From: Armatimonadota bacterium
Lineage (GTDB): Bacteria > Armatimonadota > Zipacnadia > UBA1398 > JAKPQA01
Direction of reading: 5' to 3'
Length of the DNA: 59,186 nucleotides
Assembly (NCBI GenBank): GCA_029547025.1
Contig: JAKPQA010000302.1
Coordinates: forward strand, 1-59,186
Part shown: positions 6,161-38,296 of the stretch, piece after piece
How the letters are laid out: every line of letters begins with the position of its first letter
Position numbering within the stretch: position 1 is the stretch's first letter
Translations under genes and position numbers: made by a program
The notes under the pieces: model-generated
Database searches by the model: none
Told to the model about the DNA's origin: nothing
What the model saw: the letters and a program-made list of their open reading frames with translations, nothing else

Positions 6161-7255
6161 CTATGCTCGCGGGGGCGCCGCGCTGCGCACGACCTCCTCG
6201 ACCAGTGCCCGCTCGACGCCCGAGACCACATCAACCTCACCGATGCCGCGGCACACCACGAAGCGCAGTCCTTCCGCCCCCGCCTTCTTGTCGAGCTCCA
6301 TCGCCGCAAGGACCTGAACCGGGTCCAGACCCGGAGCACTGGTCGGAAGGCCGGCCGCACGCAGCAGGGCCGTCACCCGGGAGGCATCGTCTTCGGACAG
6401 CAAGCCGAGGCGTACTGACAACTGGCCGGCGCAGACCATACCCACGGAGACAGCCTCACCATGCCGCAGCCTTCGCAGCGCCCCGGCCGTCTCGAAGCCG
6501 TGGCCGAATGTGTGCCCGTAGTTCAGGATCCGGCGCAAGCCCGTCTCCCTCTCATCGGCGGTCACCACCGCTGCCTTGATCCGGCACGATCCCGCTACCA
6601 GGGCCGTCAGAGCGTCGGCGTCGCCGCCGAGCAGCGCATTCAGGTGCTCTTCGATGAATGACAGGTAGGCGGGGTCGCGGATCACCCCGTGCTTGATGGC
6701 CTCGGCCAGGCCCGAACGAAGCTCTCTCGGTGGCAGGGTGCGCAGGACCACCGGGTCGCACACCACGGCAGCCGGCTGAGCAAAGGCGCCGACCAGGTTC
6801 TTCGCAGCCCCCAGATTCACCCCTGTCTTGCCGCCCACCGACGAGTCCACCATGGCCAGCAGTGACGTGGGCACCTGAACGCATGCAAGCCCGCGCAGAA
6901 ACGTGGCTGCAGCAAATCCGCCCAGATCGCCAACGACGCCGCCACCCAGTGCCACCACAACAGAGTCTCTGGTCAGGCGCGCATCGACCATGGTGCCGTA
7001 CAGTCTCTCGAGCGTCCGCAGCGATTTGCTGCGCTCCCCTGAAGCGACCACGTGCGTGCGCACGTCCAGTCCAGCAGAGCAGAGGCTCCCGACGGCGTCC
7101 TTGGCCCACACGCCCCCCACGTTCCGGTCGGTGACAACGAGGGCGCGCCCGTCCCTGGCAACTCCCGCCACTGCTCGGCCGAGCAAAGCAACCTGGCCCG
7201 CGCCCACGCGGATCTCATACGAGCGCGATCCGAGCTCGACACGCACCGTGGTCAA
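6161..7255 (-). CDS. aroB: 3-dehydroquinate synthase
   Basis: A 364-aa AroB converting DAHP to 3-dehydroquinate, the second step of the shikimate pathway (cytoplasmic; NAD and a divalent metal). Diagnostic stretches are GGGVVGDLGGF (NAD-binding loop), PTSLLAMVDSSVGGKTGVN, the metal-site GLAEAIKHG and NYGHTFGHGFE. Start is TTG at 7255 with GGGAGG about 10 bases upstream; the nearby ATG is out of frame. It directly follows the secretin gene, as aroB follows pilQ in many type IVa pilus loci, although the usual intervening aroK is missing here. An attenuator-like hairpin separates it from the pilus genes. Confidence 0.96.
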   Translation of the reverse strand: MTTVRVELGSRSYEIRVGAGQVALLGRAVAGVARDGRALVVTDRNVGGVWAKDAVGSLCSAGLDVRTHVVASGERSKSLRTLERLYGTMVDARLTRDSVVVALGGGVVGDLGGFAAATFLRGLACVQVPTSLLAMVDSSVGGKTGVNLGAAKNLVGAFAQPAAVVCDPVVLRTLPPRELRSGLAEAIKHGVIRDPAYLSFIEEHLNALLGGDADALTALVAGSCRIKAAVVTADERETGLRRILNYGHTFGHGFETAGALRRLRHGEAVSVGMVCAGQLSVRLGLLSEDDASRVTALLRAAGLPTSAPGLDPVQVLAAMELDKKAGAEGLRFVVCRGIGEVDVVSGVERALVEEVVRSAAPPRA

Positions 7256-7332: not shown

Positions 7333-9183
7333 CTAGAGCTGCTCGTCGACCGTGAGCTGTGTCGGCATGACCTTGACGGTAATGAAGAACAACAGCTCAC
7401 GCTCGCGCAGGTCGGTGCTCCGGGAGCGGAAGAGGGACCCGATCAGCGGGATCTCCGACAGGAGGGGCACCCGCCCCCTGCTGACGCTGCGGGATCGGTC
7501 GATGACGCCGCCGAGCACGACCGTCTTGCCGTCCGGCACCTGCACAACCGTCTCGATGTACTGCTCGGACTCGGTCGGGATGGAAGTCCCGTTGACGACC
7601 AGCGTCTCGCCCGGAACTGAGATCTCGGGCACCACATACATGGTCACCGAGTTATCCGCATTGATGCGCGGGGTGATGTTGAACATGACGCCGATCTCGA
7701 GTTCGTCGACCTGCTCCAGGCCCTGGATGACATTCCCGAAGGCGTCGCGCGTCAGTGTAGGGATTACCACCGGGACCGTTCGGTACTCGCCAATGAAGGC
7801 GGGGGTCATGTTCTGCGTGATGACCCGTGGCATCTGGAGAACGTCCGCAACGGTCTCGAGCTTGTTCGCCGAGAGTGCCGCCCGGAAATCGCCATTCACG
7901 TAGCCGATCGATAGACTGCCGCCCGTCGTCGCTGCCGGGTTAGACCCGATCTCCACCGTCCCGTCAGTGAAGCTCACCCGGATGGCCTTGCTCTTCGTGT
8001 CGCTCATCGATACATCAGCCACGATAAGCTCTACCGCCACCTGCTTGATCGGCTGATCCAGAATCTCGATGAGCTCGCGGACCTGGTCGATCCCCTGCTG
8101 GGCACCGTGAACAATGACCGAGTTCAGCTCGAGGACGGCCTGGATGCTGTCGACGTCATCCGGGAGCACCAGGTTGCCGCCGCCGCCGTAGCCGCCCCCG
8201 AAGCCGCCGCCGAACCCACCGAGGCCGCCGCCACCAAACCCACCGCCACCCCAGCCACCGCCGCCGCGACCACCAAAGCCCCCACCGCCAAAGTTGCCGC
8301 CACCGCCCCAGCCCCCGAACTGGCCGTAGCCGGCGCCGCCAACTCCGTTGAGCGCGGCCATCCGGTTGATGTTCGCGCTGGCGAACTTCGAGCCACGCAT
8401 GCCCTCGCGGCGGAGAGCGGCCATCTGGGCCTCCTGAAGCGGCCCCAGCCCGCGTGGTCCCGTGCTCACTACGGTGCCACCCACCGCGGCGACAACAGTC
8501 GGCAGGTCCGCATACTTGACCTCGATGACCTCATAATGGCGAGGCTCCTCGGCCTTCTGCTCTCCGCCCGACGCACCCGCGCCAATGGCGTCGGACGCAG
8601 AGCGGATGCCCTCGACCGACCCTTTGGGCTGGAGCTTCAGATCGGGCGCGGCGCTGACGTTCAGCACCTCGGCAGCCCTTCGCAACTCCGGGGCGTCAGA
8701 GGCCGCCACCCCGGTGCCCGCTCTCTCCGCCACGGTCCGGCCCGCCTCGGAGTCCTTCGAGTACACACACAGTATGCCGTTGCGGGTTTCGGAGGCCAGG
8801 CGCAACTCCGGGTTGCCCAGAATCGCCTGAAGCACCTCGTCGGCCGTGGCGCTCGGGATGCTCAGATAGCCAATCTCGCCCTTGACGTCGGCCCCAATCA
8901 TGATGGGCAGCCGGCGCCACTCGGCCACGGCACGCAGGACCTGCGACACGGGCACATCCTGGAGTTCGAGCGAGACGGGCTCATCGCCGAGGCCCTCAAG
9001 ATCGGCGAGGCTGGCCGCCGTGTCGCTGGCGCCGACTGCGGCGGCCGCATCCGCGGCTGCGCCCAACGCCTCCTCATGCTCGAGCCGGACTGCCGTGCCG
9101 GTGGTGTCGCCGGGTACCGCAAGAACCGCCGATGCGGCCACGACGATGAGTAGTGTCGCGAAGCCCCAGAGCTTAAGCTTCAA
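7333..9183 (-). CDS. pilQ: Secretin (PilQ/GspD family outer-membrane pore) with Gly-rich insertion
   Basis: A 616-aa exported protein, the likely outer-membrane channel of the pilus/secretion machine. Start is TTG at 9183-9181 with GGGAGGGG upstream; it gives a clean signal peptide (KLWGFATLLIVVAASAVLAV). Order: an Ala-rich linker, an STN/N0-like domain (66-145), an N1-like domain beginning YEVIEVKYADLP (about 216) interrupted by a Gly/Phe/Trp-rich tract (281-337), then the secretin beta-domain (about 380-606). The family signature is VPLLSEIPLIGSLF near 572-585. Last gene of pilMNOPQ. The closest alternative is GspD; the aroB neighbour and PilM-PilO partners favour PilQ. The 201-base gap upstream (9184-9384) holds only its ribosome site. 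Confidence 0.92.
   Translation of the reverse strand: MKLKLWGFATLLIVVAASAVLAVPGDTTGTAVRLEHEEALGAAADAAAAVGASDTAASLADLEGLGDEPVSLELQDVPVSQVLRAVAEWRRLPIMIGADVKGEIGYLSIPSATADEVLQAILGNPELRLASETRNGILCVYSKDSEAGRTVAERAGTGVAASDAPELRRAAEVLNVSAAPDLKLQPKGSVEGIRSASDAIGAGASGGEQKAEEPRHYEVIEVKYADLPTVVAAVGGTVVSTGPRGLGPLQEAQMAALRREGMRGSKFASANINRMAALNGVGGAGYGQFGGWGGGGNFGGGGFGGRGGGGWGGGGFGGGGLGGFGGGFGGGYGGGGNLVLPDDVDSIQAVLELNSVIVHGAQQGIDQVRELIEILDQPIKQVAVELIVADVSMSDTKSKAIRVSFTDGTVEIGSNPAATTGGSLSIGYVNGDFRAALSANKLETVADVLQMPRVITQNMTPAFIGEYRTVPVVIPTLTRDAFGNVIQGLEQVDELEIGVMFNITPRINADNSVTMYVVPEISVPGETLVVNGTSIPTESEQYIETVVQVPDGKTVVLGGVIDRSRSVSRGRVPLLSEIPLIGSLFRSRSTDLRERELLFFITVKVMPTQLTVDEQL
8173..8343 (-). repeat. Gly-rich coding tract in the secretin
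   Basis: Low-complexity DNA coding secretin residues 281-337, built from GGGG(F/W/N), GGRGGGG and GGFGGG units. It falls inside the N1 ring domain, where a loop would be expected. Aromatic residues (F, W, Y) punctuate the glycine runs. Confidence 0.85.
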
Positions 9184-9384
9184 CGCTCTGACCCCTCCCC
9201 TAGTCCAGCACGAGGAGCCCGTGCCGTGCCTCTCACGAGGGAACGACGCCCGTAACACAACGGTGGCCGGGAGATTCCCGTTCACCCCCGTCGAGAGACC
9301 AATACATCCGCACATATTCCAGCAGAGGCGGCAGCGCACCTTCCGGCGGCTGCCGCCCGATCTCGGCGCCCAAAACAGGGGATG

Positions 9385-10275
9385 CTACCAGCCGCCGCCC
9401 CATCCGCCGCCACCACGGTTGCCGCCCCATCCGCCGCCACCGCGGTTGCCGCCCCAGCTGTTTCCGCCACGGTTCGACGAGTAGCCGCCACCACGGCCAC
9501 CGTAGCCACCGCCTCGGCCGCCATAGCCGCCACCACCGTAGCCGCCACCACCGTAGCCGCCGCCATAGCCGCCGCCACCGTAGCCGCCGCCACCCATCTG
9601 CATCACGTCGGTGTTCATCAGCACGTAACCGCCACCGAAGAGAAGGGCCGCGCTGTAGCCGCCGATGTGCTTGGCCTCGATGACTTCGTACAGGTAATCC
9701 TCGGTCTCCTCTTCGGAGGCTGTTCCGCCCTGCCCACCGGCGCCCGGGCCGGTTCCGCCGCCGGCGCCCAGACCGAGGCCCCCGGATCGGCCGGTGCGTC
9801 CACTCGACGTGCCGCCGCGCCGATTGGTGGTCCCGCCACCCATCATGCCGCTGCCCTGCGCGATCTGCAGCGGCGCGACGCGGTAGACGATCTCGGAGTC
9901 ATCACCGGCAAGGACGCTCTTGCCCTTGCCCTCAGAGGCGCCCTCAGCACGCTTGTTCGTGGCACCCGCCTTGTTCCGGATCGTTAGCCCCCCATCGGCC
10001 TCGACCTTCTCGAGCCCGTACTTGTCCAGGATGAACTGCAGCGCGACGGCCGGGGTGACCTCGCTGAGCAGCACGGTAACGTCCTGGTCACGGACGTCCT
10101 TGGCGAACTCGATCTTGGGGAGCCCGAACTTGGCGATGGCCTGCACGACTTCCTTGAGGCCCTCGTCGTAGCACTTCACTGTGATGAGGTCGTTGCTGGC
10201 CTGAGCGAAGGCAGTTCCGCCGCAGACCAGGAGCCCCACGGCCACCAGTGTGAGACCCGGGAGAAAGCGTCGCAT
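9385..10275 (-). CDS. Short secretin-like periplasmic protein with Gly/Tyr-rich tail
   Basis: A 296-aa protein with a signal peptide (MRRFLPGLTLVAVGLLVCGG, cleavage near AFA) and an STN/N0-like domain (28-100). A Gly/Thr linker (140-185) is followed by YLYEVIEAK at 194-202, which matches YEVIEVK of the neighbouring secretin, and then about 70 residues of GGGGYGGG, GGRGGGY and GGNRGGGGW repeats ending in Trp. It has no secretin beta-domain, so it looks like the N-terminal half of a secretin stopping inside the Gly-rich loop. The ATG at 10275 has GAGGAG 10 bases upstream. It lies between pilP- and pilQ-like genes. A pilotin- or ring-accessory role is inference. Confidence 0.85.
   Translation of the reverse strand: MRRFLPGLTLVAVGLLVCGGTAFAQASNDLITVKCYDEGLKEVVQAIAKFGLPKIEFAKDVRDQDVTVLLSEVTPAVALQFILDKYGLEKVEADGGLTIRNKAGATNKRAEGASEGKGKSVLAGDDSEIVYRVAPLQIAQGSGMMGGGTTNRRGGTSSGRTGRSGGLGLGAGGGTGPGAGGQGGTASEEETEDYLYEVIEAKHIGGYSAALLFGGGYVLMNTDVMQMGGGGYGGGGYGGGYGGGGYGGGGYGGRGGGYGGRGGGYSSNRGGNSWGGNRGGGGWGGNRGGGGWGGGW
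9388..9594 (-). repeat. Gly/Tyr/Trp-rich coding repeat
   Basis: Codes for the C-terminal tail (about residues 228-296) of the short secretin-like protein. Units are GGGGYGGG, then GGRGGGY, then GNRGGGGWG. The near-identical copies suggest slippage-type expansion. Confidence 0.85.
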
Positions 10276-10402
10276 CCCTACACCACTCCTCTTCTCGCCT
10301 CGCGCCGTCCGGCCGAACCGCACGCCGCATACGGCGTGGAAGCACCGCGCGATGCCCCCAAGAGACGGTCGAGCTGCCCTCGGGTTCGCGGCAGCAGTAC
10401 CG

Positions 10403-11374
10403 TCAACCTTCGTTGGCGGTTACGCCCCGCAGGCGCACGACAACATCCTCCGTCGACCCGGTCTCTCGGAGCGACACGGAGTCTGCGCCAATGGCACGCA
10501 CCGTAAACTGGCGACCGCCGGCGCGGATTCGGTCGCCCGGCTTGACAATTCGCCCTACCGGCTTGTCGCCCTCGTACACCTCGATGATCGCGAGCGAAAC
10601 ACCATCATGAAGGATACCGGACACCCTGCGGAACGACCAGTCTGGCGGTTTGCGGGTCACGCGCGGCCCCACGGCCCCCACGCTTTGCGCTCCACCCGCA
10701 ACGACGCGCGGAGCTTCTTCTTGCGATGTGCCCACAACCGGACGGACGGACTCGCCACCGAGCTTCGGCGGTTGGGCGCGCGGGATGGTTGGGTTCGGGA
10801 CAAACCATCCAGCCGGCTGGATGCCGATGGGCTCGGGGCCCGCAAGCACGGGCTGGCGAACCTTCCGTGGCCGGGGGAATCCGCGCTCGGCGAAGACATC
10901 GGCCGGATCGTGCATTGGCAGAGATGCACTCAGGCTAGAACGCTTGGAGGCGAAGGGGTTCTCCTTGAACGGGAACAGTGGGTCACCGAAGTCCGTGACG
11001 GCCAACTGGCCCTGCATCGTTGCCGCGCCCTCTCCGCTCGGGGCTGAGGCGACTGGGGTGCCCGGTGCGCCTGCCGAGCCCGGTGCCGGACTCCCCGAGG
11101 GGGCGGGTGCGCTGCCCGGCGCCGCGGCGGTAGGCGCCGCCTGGGCCGGAGGTCCCGCCGCAGGTAGTGCCTCGCCCTTGGGCGGAGCCCCGGCGACTGA
11201 AAGCCCCGGTGCGCCCGGCTGAGCCTCCGACGGCAGTTGGCTGGTATCGATCCGGTTCTTCTTGAAGAACAAGGTATTGACCGCGAAGAAGCCGCCGACG
11301 GCCGCGATCAAGCACAGGACCACGACGAGCACTGTCTTCCCGGCTCCGGAACCCTTATCGCGCGATTCAGCCAC
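10403..11374 (-). CDS. pilP: PilP/GspC-like inner-membrane linker protein
   Basis: A 323-aa bitopic protein: a short cytoplasmic N-terminus, a transmembrane helix at 13-33, a long Ala/Pro/Gly linker (about 50-115), and a compact C-terminal beta-domain (about 245-318). The beta-domain contains SGILHDGVSLAIIE, VGRIVKPGDRI and FTVRAIGADSVSL. This is the pattern of the GspC homology-region/PilP domain, which docks on the secretin N0 domain and links it to the inner-membrane complex. PilP is normally a lipoprotein of about 175 aa, so the membrane anchor is more GspC-like. Position between pilO and the secretin genes supports the call. Confidence 0.8.
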   Translation of the reverse strand: MAESRDKGSGAGKTVLVVVLCLIAAVGGFFAVNTLFFKKNRIDTSQLPSEAQPGAPGLSVAGAPPKGEALPAAGPPAQAAPTAAAPGSAPAPSGSPAPGSAGAPGTPVASAPSGEGAATMQGQLAVTDFGDPLFPFKENPFASKRSSLSASLPMHDPADVFAERGFPRPRKVRQPVLAGPEPIGIQPAGWFVPNPTIPRAQPPKLGGESVRPVVGTSQEEAPRVVAGGAQSVGAVGPRVTRKPPDWSFRRVSGILHDGVSLAIIEVYEGDKPVGRIVKPGDRIRAGGRQFTVRAIGADSVSLRETGSTEDVVVRLRGVTANEG

Positions 11375-11400
11375 TCATGTCACTCCCAGTACTACGCCGA

Positions 11401-12276
11401 TCACCCGCCGGGCCCCTTGGAGGTCGGGGCCGCCATCGGGGCGGACCCGCCGCCCCCACCACCCATCATCCCGCTGCCCATCATCCCACTGCCCATCATG
11501 CCACCGCCCATGCCGCCGGCGGGGGCGCCGCCTCCGGCGCCTGGTCCAACATTCTGGAGGCTCTCGGGCGCAATGTCGGGCATCTCGTAGATCGACACAT
11601 CGAAGGCGGCCGTCAGCATCTGGCCATCCGTGTCCGCTTGGGGTGTGATGGTCACGTTACGGATAGCAAGAAGCCTCGGGAAACTGCCGAGCCGCCGGAA
11701 GAGATTGAGGATCTGGGCGAACCCCCCCCGGACCGTGAACCGGCCGGTAAAGGTCACGGGGCCGGGAGAGGAGCCGATGCCCGACACCGAGAGCGCATCG
11801 GCCGGGACGGTGGGCGAGACCAGCGTGCAACCGGTTGCCGCAAAGAAGTTGAAAAGAAGCGTAGGCAGATCCTCGCGGCTCTCGTAGATGTAGTCCATCT
11901 GGAGCGCCTGCTCGCCGGTGATCTCGGACGTGATGCCCGAGTCGCCGAAGGTCGCGAGAACGCCCGTGGGTTTGAAGGCCGAGCCCCAGCGCTGGTTCTG
12001 CCAGAATGGGTTGCCCGCGATCAGGGGCATCTTGTTGGTCTTGAACCAGACCCAGTCCTTGGATGCCAGGCGCTTGTCTTGGGCCGCTTTGCGCTTCTCG
12101 GCTTCGTACCGCTCCTTGTTGGCGATCTCGGCTTCGGCGGCCTGAATGGCTGCCTGGGCGTCGGCCACCCGCTTGGTCTGCGGCTCGATCAGCATCCGGA
12201 ACCCGCCATAGCCGAGCCCGCCACCGATGATCAGGCCGAGGATCAGCACCATCCACCATCTAAGCTTCTTCTTCAT
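11401..12276 (-). CDS. pilO: PilO-like alignment-complex protein
   Basis: A 291-aa bitopic protein. N-terminal transmembrane helix (about 7-28) after MKKKLRWW, a coiled-coil (33-70: ADAQAAIQAAEAEIANKE), then an alpha/beta domain with the typical PilO strand-loop (VTFTGRFTVRGGFAQILNLF, followed by RLLAIRNVTI). It would pair with PilN around PilM below the secretin. Odd: a Gly/Met tail (244-278) with GMMGSGMMGSGMMGGGG, absent from ordinary PilO. Fourth in pilMNOPQ order from the other end, directly after pilN. Confidence 0.87.
   Translation of the reverse strand: MKKKLRWWMVLILGLIIGGGLGYGGFRMLIEPQTKRVADAQAAIQAAEAEIANKERYEAEKRKAAQDKRLASKDWVWFKTNKMPLIAGNPFWQNQRWGSAFKPTGVLATFGDSGITSEITGEQALQMDYIYESREDLPTLLFNFFAATGCTLVSPTVPADALSVSGIGSSPGPVTFTGRFTVRGGFAQILNLFRRLGSFPRLLAIRNVTITPQADTDGQMLTAAFDVSIYEMPDIAPESLQNVGPGAGGGAPAGGMGGGMMGSGMMGSGMMGGGGGGSAPMAAPTSKGPGG
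11443..11547 (-). repeat. Gly/Met-rich coding repeat in pilO
   Basis: Codes for residues about 244-278 of the PilO-like protein, including tandem GSGMM units. The same composition occurs in the neighbouring pilN gene. Confidence 0.8.
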
Positions 12277-12372
12277 GACAGTCGGCCATCATTCCTAAGA
12301 GTACCGTCGCGCCGGCGCGCTCCGCTGGATCGGCCGGCCCTGCCCGTCGGGTGCAGGCGCCCAGGGAGGAGT

Positions 12373-13593
12373 CTACTCGTCGCCGCCGCCTCCGCCGCCC
12401 TTGCCGAGTCCCCGCGTGCCCTTAGTGCTCTCCTCGTCGCTGTCACCGCCGCCGCCAGACGGGGGTGCGCCGCCCCCGCCTCCCATGGGTGCCCCCATCA
12501 TGCCCATACCTCCCGCCGGGGCGGCCGCGGCCGGCGCGGCAGCCTTGACGGGCTCGAGAGCGATGGGATTGGCCAGGGTGGCCGTGAAGGTGAATGTCAT
12601 CGGGGCCTCCTGCACGATACCCGGAGCCACCGTCCGCCATGAGGACCATCCGCTGCCGTTTCCGACGAGGTTCAGGAGCGCGGCTAGAGGCGTGGAGGCG
12701 GACCCGCCGCCTCCTCCGGCGCCGCCGCCCATGCCCGGGCCCATGCCCATGCCCGGGCCCATGCCACCCGACCCCATTCCCGGTCCCATGCCCATGGCTC
12801 CGGGCGGCATGCCGGACCCCATCCCGCCGGGGCCCATGCCCATGGGGCCCATCGCGCCTCCGGGCCTTCCACCGCCACCAGCTGCGGCACCGGACATGCT
12901 GATCGTCCAGTTGCTGGTGAACAGAGGAGTCCGCGGGAGTCCGGTGGTGACGTTGTCTTCGGACCACAAAGGTTCGGTGCCGCTCCCCTGACTGGGTAGT
13001 CCTGCGGGGTCAGGCGGTGGCACCTGCAGACGCTCGAGGTTCTTGCAGAACTGGACGGCTGTTTCAAAGTTGGGGATTACGCACGAGAACCGGACGGTAT
13101 CATCGGCACCGGTGCCGCCTCCCGAGCTGCCCCCACCCATCATCCCCATGCCCATGCTCATGCCGCCCATCCCAGGGCCCATGCCGCCCATTCCGCCCAT
13201 GCCCGGCCCCATGCCTCCGCCGCCTCCGGCAGGCGTGATGGAGAAGCTCGTGAGGGTGATCTCATCCCAGATGTAGCGCGACACTGCCTCTAGGACATCG
13301 GCGTAGCGCGCGTTGATGGTCTCGAACTGCCGGCAGAACTTGGCCAAGTTCAGCACGGGCTCAATGCCGGCACGGATCTGGTCGGCTTCGGCTTTGATCT
13401 GCTTGACGGCGTTGGCCTGTGCCTCCTTGTCGGCCTTCTCCTGTTCGAGAGCGTCGGCTTTGGCTTTGGTCTGCATGCCGAGGAACAACACGCCGACTAC
13501 CACGAGCCCCACGAGCGCGAACATGGCCAGGATGGTCAGCTTGGTGCGCTTCCACCCTGAATGCCACCGCGGCAGGAGGTTGATCTTCTGCAA
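12373..13593 (-). CDS. pilN: PilN-like alignment-complex protein with Gly/Met-rich insertions
   Basis: A 406-aa protein, about twice the usual PilN length. It opens with the PilN signature INLLP (4-8), which binds the PilM groove, followed by a transmembrane helix (18-40), a coiled-coil (42-75) and a periplasmic ferredoxin-like fold split by insertions. Three low-complexity blocks rich in Gly and Met lie at 122-160, 238-298 and 361-406 (GPGMGGMGGM, MGMGPGMG). The recognisable fold strands are around 109-120 (ITLTSFSI), 167-190 and 325-345. TTG start with GAGGAG 10 bases upstream. It follows pilM after 203 bases and precedes pilO. The gap holds a CCGTTCGAACGG palindrome (13763-13774) of unknown use. 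Confidence 0.88.
   Translation of the reverse strand: MQKINLLPRWHSGWKRTKLTILAMFALVGLVVVGVLFLGMQTKAKADALEQEKADKEAQANAVKQIKAEADQIRAGIEPVLNLAKFCRQFETINARYADVLEAVSRYIWDEITLTSFSITPAGGGGGMGPGMGGMGGMGPGMGGMSMGMGMMGGGSSGGGTGADDTVRFSCVIPNFETAVQFCKNLERLQVPPPDPAGLPSQGSGTEPLWSEDNVTTGLPRTPLFTSNWTISMSGAAAGGGGRPGGAMGPMGMGPGGMGSGMPPGAMGMGPGMGSGGMGPGMGMGPGMGGGAGGGGGSASTPLAALLNLVGNGSGWSSWRTVAPGIVQEAPMTFTFTATLANPIALEPVKAAAPAAAAPAGGMGMMGAPMGGGGGAPPSGGGGDSDEESTKGTRGLGKGGGGGGDE
12700..12882 (-). repeat. Gly/Met-rich coding repeat in pilN (central)
   Basis: Codes for residues about 238-298: repeated MGMGPG and GPGMG units. Occasional Pro residues keep it unstructured. Confidence 0.82.
13114..13230 (-). repeat. Gly/Met-rich coding repeat in pilN (N-proximal)
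   Basis: Codes for residues about 122-160, repeats of GPGMGGM ending in MSMGMGMMGGG. It interrupts the first beta-hairpin of the periplasmic domain. Confidence 0.82.
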
Positions 13594-13796: not shown

Positions 13797-15173
13797 TCAG
13801 TACCAGGGATGGAGCCCGGCACCGACGGCGACCGCCATGATCGGCGCAATGTCTGCCAGGTACTCCTCGTCGTAGCCCGCACCGGGATCGATGGCGACGG
13901 AAGCAAATGGGTCACCGATCTCGGTGGGGATGCCCAGTTCCATCTCAACAAACGTGGCGATGTTCTTGACCCGGGCGGACCCACCGATGAGGATCACACG
14001 CTCGACATCGATGTCATCGTGCCGGGAGCGATAGTACTCGACCGAGCGCCGGATTTCGGCCGCGAGCTCGGCGACCACGGGTTTGATCGCGTCCGAGACC
14101 TGTTGCCGCGTCACATCCGGATCCTGCCCGTCGACGGCGGCGGCCTCGGCGCCCAGGTCGCCCATCTCAATCTGATCGACGCCCGTCAGCGTGGGCTCGT
14201 CGGCCATGTCGGGCTCGCCGAAGATCGGTCCGTCGACGGTGTCAACGAAGGCCGGCGCGGCGGCGTCCGGGCCGAAGACGGGTCCCTCGGCGGTGTCGAT
14301 CATGGTGCTGCCTGTGGGCCGGATGGGCTGCCGCCCGCCCACCTCGGGCTCCGTATCCAGGCTCCGGATGGCCATGTCGCGGACATCGCCCCAGTCCTCG
14401 GGTTGGGGTCGGGCGCCGCCGGAGTCGAGGGTAACGATGGCCCAATCGTGCTTGAGCTGCTGGGCCTCGTCCGACTCGACGATGAAAGCCTGGCCCAGAG
14501 CGCTGGTCAGCGTATCGCCGGCCAAGGGCAGGCCTCGGTTGAAGCGGAGCCAGTCGTTCTGGATGATGCTGATATCGGTGAGCTCAGCGCCAATGTTGAC
14601 GATGGCGGTGCAGCGCTCCTTGGCCACGTGGGCGGGGGCACTGACGAGAGCGCGGCCGGCCGCGAAGGGCTGAGCGTCGATGGCGGCGGGCTCGAGCTTG
14701 GCGGCGTTGAGGATCCGTAGATACTTCTCGCAGTTCTCGTCCTTGAGAACGGTGATGGTGACTTCCATGTTGGGGCTGGTGGGATCGGCGTCAGGCCCCT
14801 GGTAGATCGAATAGCTGATGGATTCCTTTGCCTGCTCGCGCGGGAAAGGAAGGTGGCGCTCGAGGTCCCACTTCATGGCGTTGCGCAGCTCGTTGAGCGT
14901 CATTCGTGGGACTTCGGTGACGCGGATGACCATGTCGGCCTGGCCGCCCACCGAGATGACGGCCTTCTTGGCGCTAAACCCGTTGCTGCGGAGCATGTCG
15001 GTCAGCGCGGCACTGACGGCGTCGGGGTCGATGACGACGCCGTTGGCGATGGTACCCGGCGGCGTCTCCTTGACGGCCGCCCGGGTCAGCACGGTCCCTT
15101 CGCGGCCGGCGACGAGTTCGACGGCCTTCATGTAGTGGGATCCCAGGTCAATGCCGATGATCGCGTTTGCCAT
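13797..15173 (-). CDS. pilM: PilM-like actin-fold ATPase
   Basis: A 458-aa cytoplasmic protein of the FtsA/PilM actin-like family. The phosphate-1 loop is IGIDLGSHYMKAVEL (6-20), the phosphate-2 region CTAIVNIGAELTDISII, and the late adenosine loop VILIGGSARVKNIATF. It binds the PilN INLLP tail and links the inner-membrane ring to the motor. Longer than typical PilM (about 350 aa): an acidic insert at roughly 265-345 carries two imperfect copies of DTAEGPVFGPD / DTVDGPIFGEPD. Start ATG with a weak GGGTG site. First gene of pilMNOPQ. The 248-base leader (15174-15421) contains no clear promoter, so it may be read from the genes upstream. Confidence 0.92.
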   Translation of the reverse strand: MANAIIGIDLGSHYMKAVELVAGREGTVLTRAAVKETPPGTIANGVVIDPDAVSAALTDMLRSNGFSAKKAVISVGGQADMVIRVTEVPRMTLNELRNAMKWDLERHLPFPREQAKESISYSIYQGPDADPTSPNMEVTITVLKDENCEKYLRILNAAKLEPAAIDAQPFAAGRALVSAPAHVAKERCTAIVNIGAELTDISIIQNDWLRFNRGLPLAGDTLTSALGQAFIVESDEAQQLKHDWAIVTLDSGGARPQPEDWGDVRDMAIRSLDTEPEVGGRQPIRPTGSTMIDTAEGPVFGPDAAAPAFVDTVDGPIFGEPDMADEPTLTGVDQIEMGDLGAEAAAVDGQDPDVTRQQVSDAIKPVVAELAAEIRRSVEYYRSRHDDIDVERVILIGGSARVKNIATFVEMELGIPTEIGDPFASVAIDPGAGYDEEYLADIAPIMAVAVGAGLHPWY

Positions 15174-15421: not shown

Positions 15422-18400
15422 CTAGGTTCCAAGGCCCGAGAGATCCACATCCTGCCGGTAGGTCGGAATGGTCCTGGGTGACAGCGCGCCGTAGAAGATG
15501 TCCAGGTCTCCGGGCGCATCGGCGGCGTACCTGCCCTCGTCGGGATCGAAGACGGGAGCGCCGCTCTCCGGATCCACTGGCGTGTGGGGCGCTGCGGTGG
15601 CGTAGAACAGCCAGACGGTCGTCGGGCCCACCACGGTACTCAAGCCACTATCGGTCAGGAAGTCCCGGAATGCCGACAGGTAGACGCCGGCCGGGTCCTG
15701 CAGGCTCCGTGTCCACCACACATAGGGCATGGCGACGGGGGCCACTCGGGACTCGTGAACGTTCCGCTCGAGCGGCACCGCCATGGGACCCGAGTCGGTG
15801 TACTGGTACGGGAACCACGCATCGCCCTTGTCGCGGTCGTTGTCATCGTCGAACATCCAGGTTGGATCGCGCTGGTCATAGGGCGTGTTGTCGTTCGGGT
15901 CGAGCGGCACAGATAGTGTCTGATAGTACAGAGCATGCTGGCCCTGAGTGGTCTTCCGCGTGAAGAGCAGCATGAGCCGCTCAGGTCGAATGAAGTCGAA
16001 CAAGGCATCGGGATCCTGGGCGGACGGATCCAGGACGCTGGCGGGTACGTGGATCACTTCGGGCTCGTCGGTGGTGCGGTCGAAGCCCCAGGGCATGATG
16101 GCCGCCGCCGGCTGTGCCTCGTCGAACGAGCTCGTGGTGAGACGCAGGGCCCGCGCCGTGTAGGTCGCGAGCACTCTCTGGTTCGCGGCGGGAACGGTGG
16201 AGGGGTCCGTCAGCTGCGCCCGGGTCTCGTTGAACCGCACCAGGCCCGCGGCGGGGTCGATCTCGATGGCCTTGACCCCATTCGGGCTCATGGCATACAG
16301 CAGCCCGGTAGCCGGATCCTCGGCGAACGTGTCCCAGGTCTGACCGGCGACATCGGTCCACGCACCTCCCACGAACTCCTGCACGCGGACCTCGATCCAG
16401 TTGCCGCCGGTGGGGTCCCCGGTGTTCGGGTCGTTGTCCCCATCGTCGGCGGCGACGGGCCAGCCCCAGCGCCAGTCGGTGTGTCGGCTGGCGAACACGG
16501 CGGTCTGGGCGGCGCCGGTGGTGGATTCGCCGGCCCCGACAGTCCCTTCGGGCAGGGGCGCGAGCACTTCGTCCTCGGTGGGCACGCGGATCTCTCCTCT
16601 GTGGTCCTCGCGGTCGAAGGGAAGCCGGGGGTCCTCATAGGTGAGCGTGCGGGCCGGGTCGATGGGGCTCGGGGCGTCGAATGGCCCCGCGGCAGTCCTC
16701 GCATACCGCTCGGGGTCGCCGAAGGTGTGGTCGAGGCGCAGGCGCGTGTAGAAGATGTCGTCGTCGCCCTTGCTGAGACTCCGGCCGGCGAACAGGATGC
16801 CGACACACGGCTTGGTCTCGCCGTTGTCGAGATACCGGTCAGCGAACACCCAGGGCTCGGCCGAGAACTCGGTGCCGGAAGCCGTGACTCCGGTCGCGGA
16901 CGGCTCATAGCGCGGGCAGTTCTGGCGCATGAGCCTCAGCTCGACCGGGCCCACCAGCTTGTCGTCACTCAGGTCATCGGCTGTCCCTTCGGTGTCCACC
17001 ACCTTGGCGTAGTAGACGCGCCGGTTGTTGCCGGACCCGGCGTAGTAGAACAGGTAGAGGCCATCGACCAATGGGTCGCCGACGTCGGCGACGAAGGGCC
17101 TGACGCCCTCGGGCCGGTGCGCATCGATGCGGAAGTAGACTTTGTCATCGAAGTCGCCCGCCCGGCTCGCGACCCCAATGTGCTGCTGAACCGCGACCTG
17201 CCCCCCACCTTCCCATTCGGACGACAGCACCCAGGCGAGCACCTCACCGGTCTGGTCGAACGAGGCGCCATAGTGCCGCCAGGACTCCAGGTTGGGGAAA
17301 GCGGGCTCGGGCGGGTTGACGCCCTCCGCAGTGGGGTCCTCGGCGTAGAGCGTGGGCGCCTCGGGCACGAAGACCGGATGGAAGGGATCAGGGGCGGCAG
17401 GCGGGGCCATCTGAGCGTGCCACAGGTTCCAGTTCCTTGGGTACCCTGGATCGCTGGAGCCCGGACGCGGCCGGTTGCTCGAGAACACCATCTCGATCTG
17501 CAGGTCGTCGCGGGTGAAGCTCGGGATGGGCAGATTGCTCATGGTCCCCCGGCCATCAGTGGCCAGGTGCACGATGACGGCGGGGTCGGTCTCGACCCAG
17601 TTCGTGTCCAGGTTGCCGATGTTCGCTCGGTCGACCTGGTTCTGGTCGGCGGGCGTACCCGGGTCGGCCGGGTCCGGAGGGTCAGGAATGTACGGATCGT
17701 AGGGCAGGTTGCCGAAGCCGAACCGCGGCGGCAGCGGCGCTTCGGAGACACGCACCTTCAGCACCGATGACGCCACCGACAGCCAATCGTAGGGCACCGG
17801 GTGGTTTGGGTCCGCCGAGGGCGGGTCATAGACGCCCGGATCGCCCGAGTCGATCGTGTTGACGAAGGCCCATCCATTGCCCGCATAGGTGCCCAGCGGA
17901 GTCATGGGGCCGATGTAGAGGCGGACGTTACCGGCTTCCTCGCCTGGATCGTATGCGAAGCGCGAAGGGAAGTGGGCGAGATCTGGGTTGTCAATGAACA
18001 CACGGCTTGAGGGGACGGACTCGCCGGCCCGCGAGGCCATGAGTGACCAGAGCTGCGGGGTCACGTAGTCGGGTTCCACCCGCTCGGCCGGCATGGTGAC
18101 CCCCAGCTCAGAGCTGTCGCTGGCGAGGTGGGTTGTGACAAAGCCGACCCCCAACTGGCCTCCCCCGCCAGAGGGATCTGGGATCAGTCCCAGCGGCAGG
18201 TTGCCATCGGTGCGGAGGCCGACCTTGCGGTGCGGGGCGTACCCGTAGGGCTCGCCATTGGTGAGCGACTGGTCGTGCCCGACCGTGCCAAAGTCCACGG
18301 TCTCGCTGACCTGTATGACGGTGGCATCCGGCAGGATACGGACGCGCACGGCAAAGCAGCGATAGGGCTCGGACGCCAGCCAGCCGTAGGAGGTCCGCTG

Positions 18401-20947
18401 TTCAACGTCGGAGGCCGTCTCGGCGCCGAACGCGCCGCGGAAGGCTTCGACGTTCTCGCGGTCGAGCCTGCCGTTGCCGTTGGTATCGATGTAGACCCGC
18501 ATCATGTAGGCCTCGTCCTCGGCCACGGATGTTGCAGGCACGGGCAGGGGCCGGCGGTAGTCAATGGCCGGCGTCGAGCGGCGGTTCTGATCGGTGGTAC
18601 CCCATGGCGCCGCCAGCATGCCGGCGTCGTCCTCGTAGAGCATGTAGAAGGGGAGCCGACGATTGTCGTCCGTGTCGCGGCCATCCTCCATAGGCGCCGC
18701 CGTCTCATACAGGAACGGTAGCGTTCCCCCGCTGACGGGCCGGATCTCGGCGGTGGACAGCGGTGACTGGTGCTTCGGTATGGAAATGCTGACCCGGACG
18801 GGCGCCTCGTCGAGCAACCCGTCGATGAGGCCATCCTCGCGTTCCGGTGGTGTGAGGACGCCCGGATCCGTGGGATAGTCGATGTCGAGCTTGCGGTAGT
18901 TCGCCGGCGCAGCCGAGTCCGTTGGGGGGAAGCGGCCGTCCTCGGACAGGTTGGCGTCGGGCGAGCCCCGCCACGGCAGGGTGGTGCCGCCGTCGGTCAG
19001 ATCGGTCCCTCCGTAGGTGCTCAACTGCACGGCCGACTCGGGGATGATCGGATAGTCGGCGTTGGGCACGGTGCGGCCACGGTAGTCACGGCCCTGCACG
19101 CGGTACTCCGTACCCAGGGATCCGGTGACACGGCTCACGATCTGCAGGGGCGCAGCCTCGGCCCGGATGAGCGCCGTGCCGACCGGGGCGATGCTGCCCA
19201 AGTCGACGTGGCTGGCGTTCTCGACGTAAACGCCGGCATTGGTGCCCCATCCGCGCGCCGAATCGGGCACGAACTCGACCATGCGGCCGTGGGTCTTGTC
19301 GAACAGGTCGAGGACGGGCAATGCGAGCCCGCGGTTGACGTCGTCGTCCATCCAGGCGGTGCTACCGGCCGAGTAGCCGTTGAAGGAGTCCTGATAGGGC
19401 GCCGTGTGCACACCGGTGGCCGGGATGCGCGTGAAGAAGCTCCGGTTCCCGTTGGCATAGTTGTACTGGCGCGTCACGTCAGCCAGCGCCCGCGCGTCTC
19501 CGTCGGGTGGGGCATTCTCACGGAAGTTGGCCGGCACGGCCGCGCTGGAGTCGGCGAGGGTCGCCGTCCCCTCTGCAGCATTGCCATAGAAGCTGAAGCG
19601 TCGGGCTGAGTCGCCCCAGACTTCAAGATTCACCGGGTTCGCCACGATGAAATAGTCGCGGGCATCCGCAGCATAGGTGACCTTTTGGCTCGCGGTCCAT
19701 CCGGCGGGTGTGGTTGTCTCGTTGGCCAGGGCGATGACATCGCCCGAGTGGTACGACGTGGCCGTGACGGGAGGATTGGGGATGGTGGGCATCGGCGGGG
19801 TCGTCGGATCGGCCGGGTCGTTGGGATTGGAGTAGAGGTACAGGTCGATGCCCTCGATGGTCCAGTAGCCGGGATCCCAGTAGCGGTCGCGCTCGACCAG
19901 CGGGGCGTCGTAGCCGTCGACAACCCCGTCGGGGGCGCCGGTGAGGCCGCGGCTCCCGCTGCCGGGAGTCCCCGCGCCGGGCCCGAATCGATCGATCGGG
20001 GCCCCGGTGCCCGGGTCGACCTTGAGCATGCCCCCGGCCACCCGGCTCTCCCAGGTGTCGTAGAGCAAAGGCCCGCCACCCCACCAGTTCAGCGCGCTGC
20101 TCCACCACTGGGCGCGGTAGTCCCCGCTGGGCAGCCCGGCAGGAAGAATGCTGAAGCCCGGGCTTGGGGTGAGGTCGACATCGAAGTAGAGGGAGAGCCG
20201 GGTACCCGAGGCTCCGCCGTTCTGGATGATGGTGCTGGCCTGGGCGTTGAGCACGGGGTCCGTATCCATGATCCCGTCGCCGTTGGTGTCGACCGTGTAC
20301 CGGTCGGGCGTACCGTCACTCGGGTACCGGTCGATGAGGTAGTCCATCAGGATCCAGGCCCGCGGGCGCTCTTCAGCGTTGCTCAGCGGCACGAGTCCGC
20401 CGTCGTAAGTGAAGGGGTTGTGGTCGGGGCCCACGAGCCTCAGCACGGCCCAGGAGACGCCCATGAAACCATCCTCGCGGGTTCCATCTCCGTCGAGGTC
20501 GGCAGCACTCCCCGGTGTGTACGCCGGGCTCCCTGGATCGGTGGTATTGACGGTTCCCCAGACGAGGTCCAGGTCGACGTCGATCTTGATGCGCCGCAGG
20601 TCTCCCCATCGAAACACATAGGTGCCCTCGGCGCCGCCGGTGCGGTCCACATCCAGGGTCACCCAGTCGTGGATGAGCGCCGGCAGCGTGTTGCCGCCGG
20701 CCACACCCGTATAGGGGTTCGCGCCGGCGGATGGGTCGGACACCGGCACCCAGGCCGGCCGGTCCGTCACCGTGGCGGGGTTAGGCTGAGCCGGGAGGGC
20801 GGACGGCGCGCGGTAGATAGGCTTCTCGATCGGCTGGAAGTTCATATACCGGATGCGCGCGCTCCCGGGGACCGCCATCATACCCAGAGCCGCCAGGGCG
20901 AGCACCAGGACTCTGGAAGGTCTCATGCCAGTTTTCGGCCGTCCCAT
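15422..20947 (-). CDS. Giant exported protein, 1841 aa, with Ca-binding-like motifs
   Basis: Begins with a signal peptide (MGRPKTGMRPSRVLVLALAALGMMAVPGSA); the ATG at 20947 has GAGGT 9 bases upstream. No enzyme motif seen. The sequence is beta-rich, with many Pro, Asp, Thr and Trp and almost no Lys or Cys. Calcium-binding-like loops: DLDGDGTREDG (about 150), DTNGDGIMDTD (about 220) and DTNGNGRLDREN (about 820). Around 1150-1450 repeats such as VFSSNRPRPGSSDPG and LFAGRSLSKGDDDIFY look like WD40/TolB-like (PD40) propeller blades. Located directly downstream of the 1970-aa protein and the pseudopilin genes, so it is probably exported or displayed by that machine. A PilY1-like tip adhesin or a secreted substrate are both possible. 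Confidence 0.85.
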   Translation of the reverse strand: MGRPKTGMRPSRVLVLALAALGMMAVPGSARIRYMNFQPIEKPIYRAPSALPAQPNPATVTDRPAWVPVSDPSAGANPYTGVAGGNTLPALIHDWVTLDVDRTGGAEGTYVFRWGDLRRIKIDVDLDLVWGTVNTTDPGSPAYTPGSAADLDGDGTREDGFMGVSWAVLRLVGPDHNPFTYDGGLVPLSNAEERPRAWILMDYLIDRYPSDGTPDRYTVDTNGDGIMDTDPVLNAQASTIIQNGGASGTRLSLYFDVDLTPSPGFSILPAGLPSGDYRAQWWSSALNWWGGGPLLYDTWESRVAGGMLKVDPGTGAPIDRFGPGAGTPGSGSRGLTGAPDGVVDGYDAPLVERDRYWDPGYWTIEGIDLYLYSNPNDPADPTTPPMPTIPNPPVTATSYHSGDVIALANETTTPAGWTASQKVTYAADARDYFIVANPVNLEVWGDSARRFSFYGNAAEGTATLADSSAAVPANFRENAPPDGDARALADVTRQYNYANGNRSFFTRIPATGVHTAPYQDSFNGYSAGSTAWMDDDVNRGLALPVLDLFDKTHGRMVEFVPDSARGWGTNAGVYVENASHVDLGSIAPVGTALIRAEAAPLQIVSRVTGSLGTEYRVQGRDYRGRTVPNADYPIIPESAVQLSTYGGTDLTDGGTTLPWRGSPDANLSEDGRFPPTDSAAPANYRKLDIDYPTDPGVLTPPEREDGLIDGLLDEAPVRVSISIPKHQSPLSTAEIRPVSGGTLPFLYETAAPMEDGRDTDDNRRLPFYMLYEDDAGMLAAPWGTTDQNRRSTPAIDYRRPLPVPATSVAEDEAYMMRVYIDTNGNGRLDRENVEAFRGAFGAETASDVEQRTSYGWLASEPYRCFAVRVRILPDATVIQVSETVDFGTVGHDQSLTNGEPYGYAPHRKVGLRTDGNLPLGLIPDPSGGGGQLGVGFVTTHLASDSSELGVTMPAERVEPDYVTPQLWSLMASRAGESVPSSRVFIDNPDLAHFPSRFAYDPGEEAGNVRLYIGPMTPLGTYAGNGWAFVNTIDSGDPGVYDPPSADPNHPVPYDWLSVASSVLKVRVSEAPLPPRFGFGNLPYDPYIPDPPDPADPGTPADQNQVDRANIGNLDTNWVETDPAVIVHLATDGRGTMSNLPIPSFTRDDLQIEMVFSSNRPRPGSSDPGYPRNWNLWHAQMAPPAAPDPFHPVFVPEAPTLYAEDPTAEGVNPPEPAFPNLESWRHYGASFDQTGEVLAWVLSSEWEGGGQVAVQQHIGVASRAGDFDDKVYFRIDAHRPEGVRPFVADVGDPLVDGLYLFYYAGSGNNRRVYYAKVVDTEGTADDLSDDKLVGPVELRLMRQNCPRYEPSATGVTASGTEFSAEPWVFADRYLDNGETKPCVGILFAGRSLSKGDDDIFYTRLRLDHTFGDPERYARTAAGPFDAPSPIDPARTLTYEDPRLPFDREDHRGEIRVPTEDEVLAPLPEGTVGAGESTTGAAQTAVFASRHTDWRWGWPVAADDGDNDPNTGDPTGGNWIEVRVQEFVGGAWTDVAGQTWDTFAEDPATGLLYAMSPNGVKAIEIDPAAGLVRFNETRAQLTDPSTVPAANQRVLATYTARALRLTTSSFDEAQPAAAIMPWGFDRTTDEPEVIHVPASVLDPSAQDPDALFDFIRPERLMLLFTRKTTQGQHALYYQTLSVPLDPNDNTPYDQRDPTWMFDDDNDRDKGDAWFPYQYTDSGPMAVPLERNVHESRVAPVAMPYVWWTRSLQDPAGVYLSAFRDFLTDSGLSTVVGPTTVWLFYATAAPHTPVDPESGAPVFDPDEGRYAADAPGDLDIFYGALSPRTIPTYRQDVDLSGLGT

Positions 20948-21035
20948 GGCTCTCGTACCTCCATCACCCTCACAGGCCCGGTCCGCCGTTCGCGGGCCGG
21001 ATCTGTCACAACGGATCCACATTCAGTCTGGCGCC

Positions 21036-37054: not shown

Positions 37055-38296
37055 CTACTCGTTCTGGGAAGACAGGCTGTTGATGATCTCAACCAGCGGC
37101 ATGAACATGGCGACGACGATGAATCCAACGACGCCACCGAGGAAAACGATCAACATCGGCTCGATGGCGGCCGTCAGGGAAGCCAGGGCCGTGTCGACCT
37201 CGGACTCGTAGAACTCCGACACCTTAGCCAGCATGGCGTCGAGCGAGCCGGTCTCCTCGCCGATGGAGATCATCTGAACCACCATGGGCGGGAACATGCC
37301 GGAGTTACGCAGGGGCGTGCCGATCTCCTCGCCCTCGCGGACGCTGGCGCGCGCGTCGAGCACGGCCTCGGCGATGATCTCGTTGCCGACAGTGCCGGCC
37401 ACGGTCTCCATGGCCTGGAGGATGGGCACACCACTGCTGAGCAGGGTGGAGAGCGTGGAGGCGAAGCGCGATAGTGCAACTTTGTGGATCAGCTTGCCAA
37501 AGACGGGCAGCTTGAGCTTAACCAGGTCGATGTAGCGGCGCCCAACCTTGGTTCGGCCGAGAAACTTGAGGGCGATGAAGATGATGATGCCCCCAGCCAG
37601 GGCGTAGTACCAGTAGTGGACGAGGAAGTCGCTGGCATCGCGGAGGATGAGGGTCATCTTCGGCATCTTGTCGCGGCCGATGCCGAGTTCGTCGAACAGG
37701 GCCATGAACTTGGGCAGGATGAAGGTCATGAGGAAGAGCACGATGCCGACCGCCGCGATCATAACGATCGTGGGGTAGGTCATGGCGGACTTGACCTTCC
37801 GGCGAAGTTCGAGGTCCTTTTCGAGGAAGACGGCGAGCTTGTTGAGCGTCTCGTCGAGCACGCCGCCGACCTCGCCCGCGCGGACCAGACCGATGGCCAG
37901 GTTCGAGAAGGTTCGAGAGTACTTGGCCATGGCCCCGGACAGCGAGTTACCCCCCTCGACCTCAGCGCGAATGTCGGCGATCATGGCCCTTAGGTTGGGG
38001 TTGGTGGTCTGCTCCTGAAGAACCGAGAGGCAGCGGACCACGGTCACGCCGGCGTTGATCATGGTGGCGAACTGCCGGCAGAACTGGGCCAAGTCGTTGA
38101 GCTTGACGCGCTTGAAGCGCGACATGCCACGTCCCCGGCCTTTGACCACGCCGGTGCCCTTGGTCTTCTGGATCGACGAGACCACATAGCCCTGGTCGAC
38201 CAGGTTAGTGCGCAACGCTTGCTCGCTGTCGGCCTCGATGGTTCCCGTGAACTCGGCACCGCGCGCGTCGCGTACCCGGTACTGGAACACCGCCAT
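37055..38296 (-). CDS. pilC: PilC/GspF-type inner-membrane platform protein
   Basis: 413 aa. Two tandem T2SSF domains, each with the helical motif (LAQFCRQFATMINAGV and LSRFASTLSTLLSSGVP), and three transmembrane segments (IVMIAAVGIVLFLMTFILP, YALAGGIIIFIALKF, and the C-terminal MLIVFLGGVVGFIVVAMF). It couples the PilB/PilT motors to pilin insertion and removal. The start ATG at 38296 gives MAVFQYRVRDARG, the usual family opening. Encoded between pilT and pilD. Confidence 0.95.
   Translation of the reverse strand: MAVFQYRVRDARGAEFTGTIEADSEQALRTNLVDQGYVVSSIQKTKGTGVVKGRGRGMSRFKRVKLNDLAQFCRQFATMINAGVTVVRCLSVLQEQTTNPNLRAMIADIRAEVEGGNSLSGAMAKYSRTFSNLAIGLVRAGEVGGVLDETLNKLAVFLEKDLELRRKVKSAMTYPTIVMIAAVGIVLFLMTFILPKFMALFDELGIGRDKMPKMTLILRDASDFLVHYWYYALAGGIIIFIALKFLGRTKVGRRYIDLVKLKLPVFGKLIHKVALSRFASTLSTLLSSGVPILQAMETVAGTVGNEIIAEAVLDARASVREGEEIGTPLRNSGMFPPMVVQMISIGEETGSLDAMLAKVSEFYESEVDTALASLTAAIEPMLIVFLGGVVGFIVVAMFMPLVEIINSLSSQNE

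Follow-up and report, generated by a model that had tools for sequence, protein, structure and literature searches.

Flexible, glycine-rich segments are known from the type IV pilus machinery of Thermus thermophilus. There, according to the available text of a recent study, PilW provides a flexible Gly/Pro-rich linker that lies between PilQ and PilNO and spans the wide periplasm, and truncating this linker moves the inner density by about 7 nm (PMC13039148). For Thermus PilQ, the accessible part of another paper proposes that glycine-containing N1 loops give flexibility for the opening and closing of Gate 2 (PMC5745081). In the type II secretion system, the secretin central and top gates have been described, with nothing on N1 tracts in the available portion of the text (PMC10550240). 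Outside secretion machines, GroEL carries Gly-Met C-terminal tails within a ring, which are described, in the accessible parts of two reports, as conserved, functionally significant and rich in polyproline II; such tails can thus be conserved and functional (PMC11978752, PMC12571646). Here, we analyzed a stretch of 59,186 nt (the window, to which all positions refer) from an uncultured Armatimonadota genome of 6.3 Mb. Its minus strand carries, in this order, pilM, pilN, pilO, a gene at the pilP position, a short secretin-like gene and a secretin gene, followed by aroB. Several of the encoded proteins contain long glycine-rich tracts, and across related operons we found these tracts at fixed insertion points and under purifying selection at the amino acid level.

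The window resembles the Thermus system in that its PilP-position protein occupies the same gene position as PilW, between pilO and pilQ. However, the available description of PilW reports a GspC HR-like domain, to which the window protein had no Pfam or NCBIfam match. Furthermore, the Thermus tract is found in one protein, whereas in Armatimonadota up to five proteins carry tracts, their chemistry is compartment specific, and an extra gene encoding an N0 and half-N1 domain is present. Likewise, both Thermus PilQ and the Armatimonadota secretin have long glycine-containing insertions in the N1 ring of a type IV pilus secretin, a proposed flexible gate, but the accessible text on Thermus mentions only "several" glycines, and that secretin has N0 to N5 rings as opposed to N0 and N1 in the window. 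GroEL differs in being an unrelated protein of another compartment; no chaperone role is indicated for the Armatimonadota tracts, which also show no sharp period of 3. The gene order of Escherichia coli hofMNOPQ-aroKB is similar to that of the window, also adjoining aro genes, whereas its five proteins have no Gly tract and a short N0 gene is absent. Since the hof genes were the only comparison outside Armatimonadota, confinement to this phylum is not a result of this study. A plasmid search with PilM for outgroups gave six records from Acinetobacter, Aeromonas and Frondihabitans, and a phage search with PilM DNA gave no match. In the literature on Armatimonadota pili and on glycine-rich or disordered PilQ, PilN or secretins, we found no description of this tract pattern in titles and the beginnings of abstracts, a body of text in which subscription journals are thinly covered.

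A sequence-only reading of the window had claimed three tracts in PilN, one in PilO, one in the secretin and one in the tail of the short protein. With a threshold of 10 Gly in 20 residues, all of them were recovered where it had placed them. PilN (12373 to 13593; this and the following features are on the minus strand) consists of a short cytoplasmic N-terminal segment, a transmembrane segment and a periplasmic domain. It carries a Gly/Met tract in a loop of this domain (residues 123-162, 13108 to 13227; insertion point at core 119-121, common to few relatives), a Gly/Met/Pro tract at the most used PilN insertion point (residues 235-297, 12703 to 12891; core 167) and a Gly/Met tract in the C-terminal tail (residues 361-404, 12382 to 12513). 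PilO (11401 to 12276) has a Gly/Met tract in its C-terminal tail (residues 244-291, 11404 to 11547). We assigned both proteins from operon order and phylum profiles: PilN had nothing over cut-off in Pfam or NCBIfam and only a chance-level match to another family, and PilO reached 165 bits with its ortholog profile and 19 bits with PF04350 (1.6e-3), below the cut-off of 22. The PilP/PilW-position protein (10403 to 11374), recognized by its ortholog profile, is composed of a transmembrane segment, a Pro/Ala linker and a C-terminal domain; it lacks a Gly tract and has no Pfam or NCBIfam match. The short secretin-like protein (9385 to 10323; basis: profile, hhalign and AlphaFold2) comprises an N0 domain, the first half of an N1 domain and a Gly/Tyr/Trp/Arg tail (residues 230-311, 9391 to 9636) whose last residue is Trp, and between N0 and half-N1 it harbors a Gly/Ser/Thr tract that is absent from the sequence-only reading (residues 157-200, 9724 to 9855). 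Finally, the PilQ-like secretin (7333 to 9339), with N0, N1 and a secretin domain (7366-7857; PF00263, 1.2e-37), has a Gly/Phe/Trp tract in the alpha1-beta2 loop of N1 (residues 332-388, 8176 to 8346).

The location of this last tract inside N1 was borne out by both Pfam and AlphaFold2. The Secretin_N match covers only the second half of the domain (residues 393-433, profile positions 30-69 of 69), and in the model N1 elements flank the tract on both sides, with beta1-alpha1 at 268-286 and beta-beta-alpha at 396-427. The tracts of the two modelled proteins, the short protein and the secretin, had a predicted local distance difference test score (pLDDT) below 50 and are thus predicted to be disordered. 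Tracts of at least 35 residues occurred in four of the five proteins PilN, PilO, PilP, short protein and secretin, and in 5 of 269 non-overlapping open reading frames (ORFs) of at least 120 residues from 382,654 bases of the same genome; given this rarity, chance is unlikely. The other secretin clusters of the genome (L074-L076) had no tract in N1, and the sole secretin tract found in them, of 20 residues, was near the N terminus of one L075 secretin. As a separate observation, a 680-residue PQQ/BamB-like beta-propeller protein of this genome (L153:8586-10628, contig C361) contains Gly/Met tracts with GGMMGP repeats, a chemistry like that of the inner-membrane tracts described below.

To follow the tracts across relatives, we used their operon regions and 64 named loci, assigned genes with tract-masked profiles and lowered the threshold to 8 Gly in 20. 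PilM matches place these relatives in the Armatimonadota (Ca. Zipacnadia, Ca. Hebobacteria, WS1 and Chthonomonadales). From 98 loci, removal of 18 near-duplicates (PilM identity of at least 95%) and 2 paralogous clusters left 78 non-redundant operons, in which ORFs were taken from the first ATG, GTG or TTG and partial ORFs were excluded from counts. At least one Gly tract was found in 65 of 72 complete PilN, 51 of 69 PilO, 45 of 64 PilP, all 53 short proteins and 44 of 48 secretins, and in 13 of 192 downstream control ORFs. The PilP tracts had been missing from the sequence-only reading. Of the 24 family labels, 20 were fetched, and in each of these one or more of the operon proteins bore a tract. 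Insertion points were narrow in the secretin (core 198-204 of 476 in most) and in the short protein (core 148-155 of 155 in most), restricted to the C-terminal tail in PilO, and recurrent in PilN (core 156-167 and C-terminal tail) and PilP (linker and C-terminal tail). Tract position was therefore kept while length varied, the pattern that a comparison of related genomes had been proposed to look for. Tract lengths of PilN, PilO, PilP and the secretin covaried, e.g., with a rho of 0.57 for PilO-PilP and 0.54 for PilN-secretin.

Such tracts might in principle arise by neutral repeat expansion through slippage or high GC content, the alternative raised by the sequence-only reading. Short tandem units were indeed detected in several tracts by Tandem Repeats Finder, and tract lengths differ even in close pairs. 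DNA is also copied occasionally: in L069 and L040, stretches of 55 and 60 bases are identical between the tracts of PilN and PilO within a genome, which suggests recent gene conversion or copying. However, in ten disjoint pairs, chosen by hand from 41 pairs with at least 83% PilM identity (pairs below 83% were excluded because silent sites saturate), the ratio of nonsynonymous to synonymous substitution rates (dN/dS) in the tracts was 0.07-0.22. When the tract codons of one partner were shuffled and realigned as a control, the mean proportion of nonsynonymous differences (pN) was 0.29-0.38, as opposed to 0.006-0.22 in the real tracts. Non-tract regions of comparable pairs mostly had a dN/dS of 0.04-0.09, indicating that the tracts are somewhat less constrained yet far from neutral. 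The secretin tract of L045 and L082 had no change at all, silent ones included, which may reflect a recently shared stretch. Furthermore, GC content explained little (|rho| of at most 0.28, with large tract sets at 45% and 48% GC), and identical neighbouring Gly codons exceeded the expectation from codon frequencies by only 1-3 percentage points. Taking dN/dS, the conserved insertion points and the GC tests together, we reject neutral expansion, against which the breadth of families and the absence of tracts from N1 of the genome's other secretins also speak. As a whole explanation it is refuted, and we regard it as the least probable of those considered, although it may supply raw length variation.

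By composition, the tracts form two classes, one of Gly/Pro/Met/Ala on the inner-membrane side and one of Gly/aromatic/Ser/Arg/Gln on the outer-membrane side. Among the 50 loci having both classes, aromatics were more frequent on the outer-membrane side in 48, and proline on the inner side, also in 48. Met was higher on the inner side in 36, with 13 loci reversed and 1 tie, so that proline parts the two sides more consistently. The earlier proposal that inner partners use Met and outer partners aromatics thus held well for the aromatics and less so for Met. The commonest words between glycines were M, P and A in PilN, PilO and PilP, and Y, F, M and R in the short protein, and the aromatics of outer tracts were spaced more evenly than in shuffles. 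Strict polyglycine-II (GGX) bundles were discarded as a candidate structure on the lack of a sharp period of 3, polyproline-II content still being possible.

The methionines had also been taken as possible metal ligands, and Met does make up 10-12% of the PilN, PilO and PilP tracts, with many Met residues close together in the window. Nevertheless, 9 of 63 loci had at most 2% Met in their inner tracts, including four with no Met at all, and 17,404 tract residues included a single His and three Cys. Together with the more consistent separation by proline, these counts make binding of copper or silver very improbable. Copper binding was discarded as a candidate, as Met is variable, conserved Met was not found, and His and Cys are nearly absent.

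We then compared the tracts of one genome with each other. Tripeptide-profile similarity was higher within than between loci for PilN-PilO (0.548 versus 0.312), PilN-PilP (0.502 versus 0.316) and PilO-PilP (0.473 versus 0.312), values matched by none of 2000 permutations. Moreover, PilN, PilO and PilP tracts were closer to the partner in their own genome than to the other gene of the nearest relative in all six directed comparisons (p from 0.026 to 6e-5; N to O, p = 0.0019; O to N, p = 6.1e-5; N to P, p = 5.3e-4). Hence, within one genome, the inner-class tracts of these three proteins co-evolve. Peptides of up to 28 residues were common to tracts, mostly with little common DNA. As a source of this dialect, copying of DNA between genes was rejected, since only 2 of 48 PilN-PilO pairs had a stretch of at least 30 identical bases and the nine remaining gene combinations had no such stretch. 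The short protein and the secretin had a similarity of 0.268 within and 0.183 between loci, and no comparison across the inner and outer classes beat the nearest relative.

The short protein had no Pfam or NCBIfam family over cut-off. Its profile aligned to N0 and the first half of N1 of the secretin (hhalign probability 99.7) and matched PilQ N0-N1 of solved structures, while in the AlphaFold2 model N0 (residues 47-117) was good, half-N1 moderate and the tail unmodelled. In most orthologs, the tract starts at the place that corresponds to the N1 insertion of the secretin, and the protein stops after it. A C-terminal aromatic residue is part of both the outer-membrane beta-signal and the PDZ-ligand rules. 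The tail could accordingly be a targeting or docking element, with the Gly tract as a mere arm. In line with this, 37 of 53 short proteins end in an aromatic residue (F, W or Y) and 10 in Arg, compared to an aromatic end in 33 of 622 control ORFs, and in two exceptions, L038 and L056, the tail continues in a different frame up to an aromatic last residue. These two genes contain either an assembly error or a real frameshift in a GC-rich repeat; two others without an aromatic end, L042 and L103, are interrupted by N. Yet no amphipathic strand of a beta-signal was seen, and the explanation concerns one of five proteins only. We consider it improbable as an account of the tracts.

What could these tracts do? 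We propose that they are disordered parts of the trans-envelope complex of the type IVa pilus, maintained by selection and serving as inner tethers and as a soft secretin gate or gasket, a reading for which we see the balance as even. By analogy with Thermus PilW, as described in the text available, the inner tails and linkers would be flexible tethers. They would also form a weakly sticky sleeve at the base of the pilus, and the PilNOP ring could in this way track the secretin and keep its grip on it over a variable periplasm. By analogy with the Gate 2 N1 loops in the accessible account of Thermus PilQ, the periplasmic entrance of the secretin would be filled by the tracts in the N1 loops of its ring together with the short-protein tails, as a soft gate or gasket giving way to the pilus. 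The sequence-only reading had suggested flexible, periplasm-facing segments of one machine. Disorder in two models, phylum-wide position, purifying selection and co-evolution agree with this part, whereas its suggestion of metal binding fell away, and the data weigh neither for nor against the condensation that it had also considered.

Alternatively, the tracts could be passive entropic spacers that give linkers and tails the extra length needed in a wide periplasm, their composition providing solubility and flexibility without specific cohesion or gating. The spacer role assigned to Thermus PilW in the available text (PMC13039148) and the PilP linker tracts fit this explanation, as does the joint rise of PilN, PilO, PilP and secretin tract lengths, which a common periplasm width predicts. 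However, the sequence shows no partner that the C-terminal tails of PilN and PilO or the last part of the short protein could tether. Furthermore, a pure spacer should have no need for two compartment-specific compositions, a genome-specific dialect or a C-terminal aromatic residue. We therefore hold the spacer explanation to be possible but on the unlikely side.

A bolder version of the tether and gate proposal is that the tracts form two low-complexity phases. In the FG-nucleoporin barrier, aromatic stickers in Gly spacers are anchored to a ring channel. Similarly, a Gly/Pro/Met sleeve of PilN, PilO and PilP would coexist with a Gly/aromatic plug made of secretin N1 loops and the N0/half-N1 protein, which would seal the vestibule and pass the pilus, the differing stickers keeping the phases unmixed. 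There is no homology to nucleoporins; aromatic-Gly repeats in the secretin N1 are observed, whereas their lumen position, cohesion and selectivity are presumed. We judge this version unlikely.

Several points weigh against the tether and gate proposal. The functions suggested for Armatimonadota come from analogy, and according to the available text the Thermus gate loops are beta1-alpha1 and beta2-beta3 of N1, whereas the Armatimonadota insert is in the alpha1-beta2 loop. The AlphaFold2 models are monomers, and the N1 insert is presumed to face the lumen. The dialect of the short protein and the secretin does not beat the nearest relative (p 0.49-0.64), so that the outer side gives no sign of co-evolution over and above common descent. 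The loci are kin, and the counts given above are thus not independent events. Finally, close relatives lacking all tracts, regarded by the sequence-only reading as a sign of neutral expansion, were found in part: in L107 and L119 the tract of the short protein is the only one left, and L090 has this tract and a 19-residue PilN tract. Most tracts are therefore dispensable in at least one lineage, and these three lineages offer natural test cases.

As judged from its genes alone, the machine is probably a type IVa-like pilus system. Upstream of pilN lies pilM (13797 to 15173, minus strand; TIGR01175, 191.4 bits with a cut-off of 133; PF11104, 1.6e-41), and downstream of the secretin gene lies aroB (6161-7255, assigned from its sequence). 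The window also contains, on the minus strand, pilC-like (37097-38083), pilT-like (38664-39497) and pilB-like (39718-40878) genes, all recognized by domain matches, the T and B labels being given from order and length. The operon and these matches led us to the type IVa assignment; an N0/N1 secretin adjoining aro genes and PilB, PilT and PilC homologues in the genome, both expected of a type IVa alignment complex (PilMNOPQ), are present. The best Foldseek match of the secretin was Vibrio cholerae PilQ (6w6m). It scored 150.7 bits with the NCBIfam PilQ family TIGR02515, under the curated cut-off of 284.35, and 152 bits with GspD TIGR02517 (cut-off 351.35), and we therefore call it PilQ-like on the basis of fold match and gene order. 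Upstream of pilM, a gene at 15422-21022 encodes an 1866-residue protein without Pfam match, and similar long proteins occur in the pilM loci of the two nearest relatives (L056 and L077). Elsewhere, the same genome encodes six more secretins, grouped in three clusters (contigs C42, C115 and C361). The C115 cluster comes with PilM-, PilB- and PilC-like genes of its own and is free of Gly tracts.

Stretches of low complexity tend to be written off as noise. In one well-understood machine, we see them phylum-wide: they keep their positions, evolve under purifying selection, differ in chemistry between the two membranes and, in PilN, PilO and PilP, match within a genome. Our analysis also identifies a pilus-operon gene without a matching Pfam or NCBIfam family, which encodes N0, half-N1 and a Gly tail and carries a tract in every complete copy. 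Overall, these data make selected disorder in a trans-envelope complex of bacteria open to testing. They bear on how inner and outer components are kept in register across the periplasm and on what may close a wide secretin at its periplasmic entrance.

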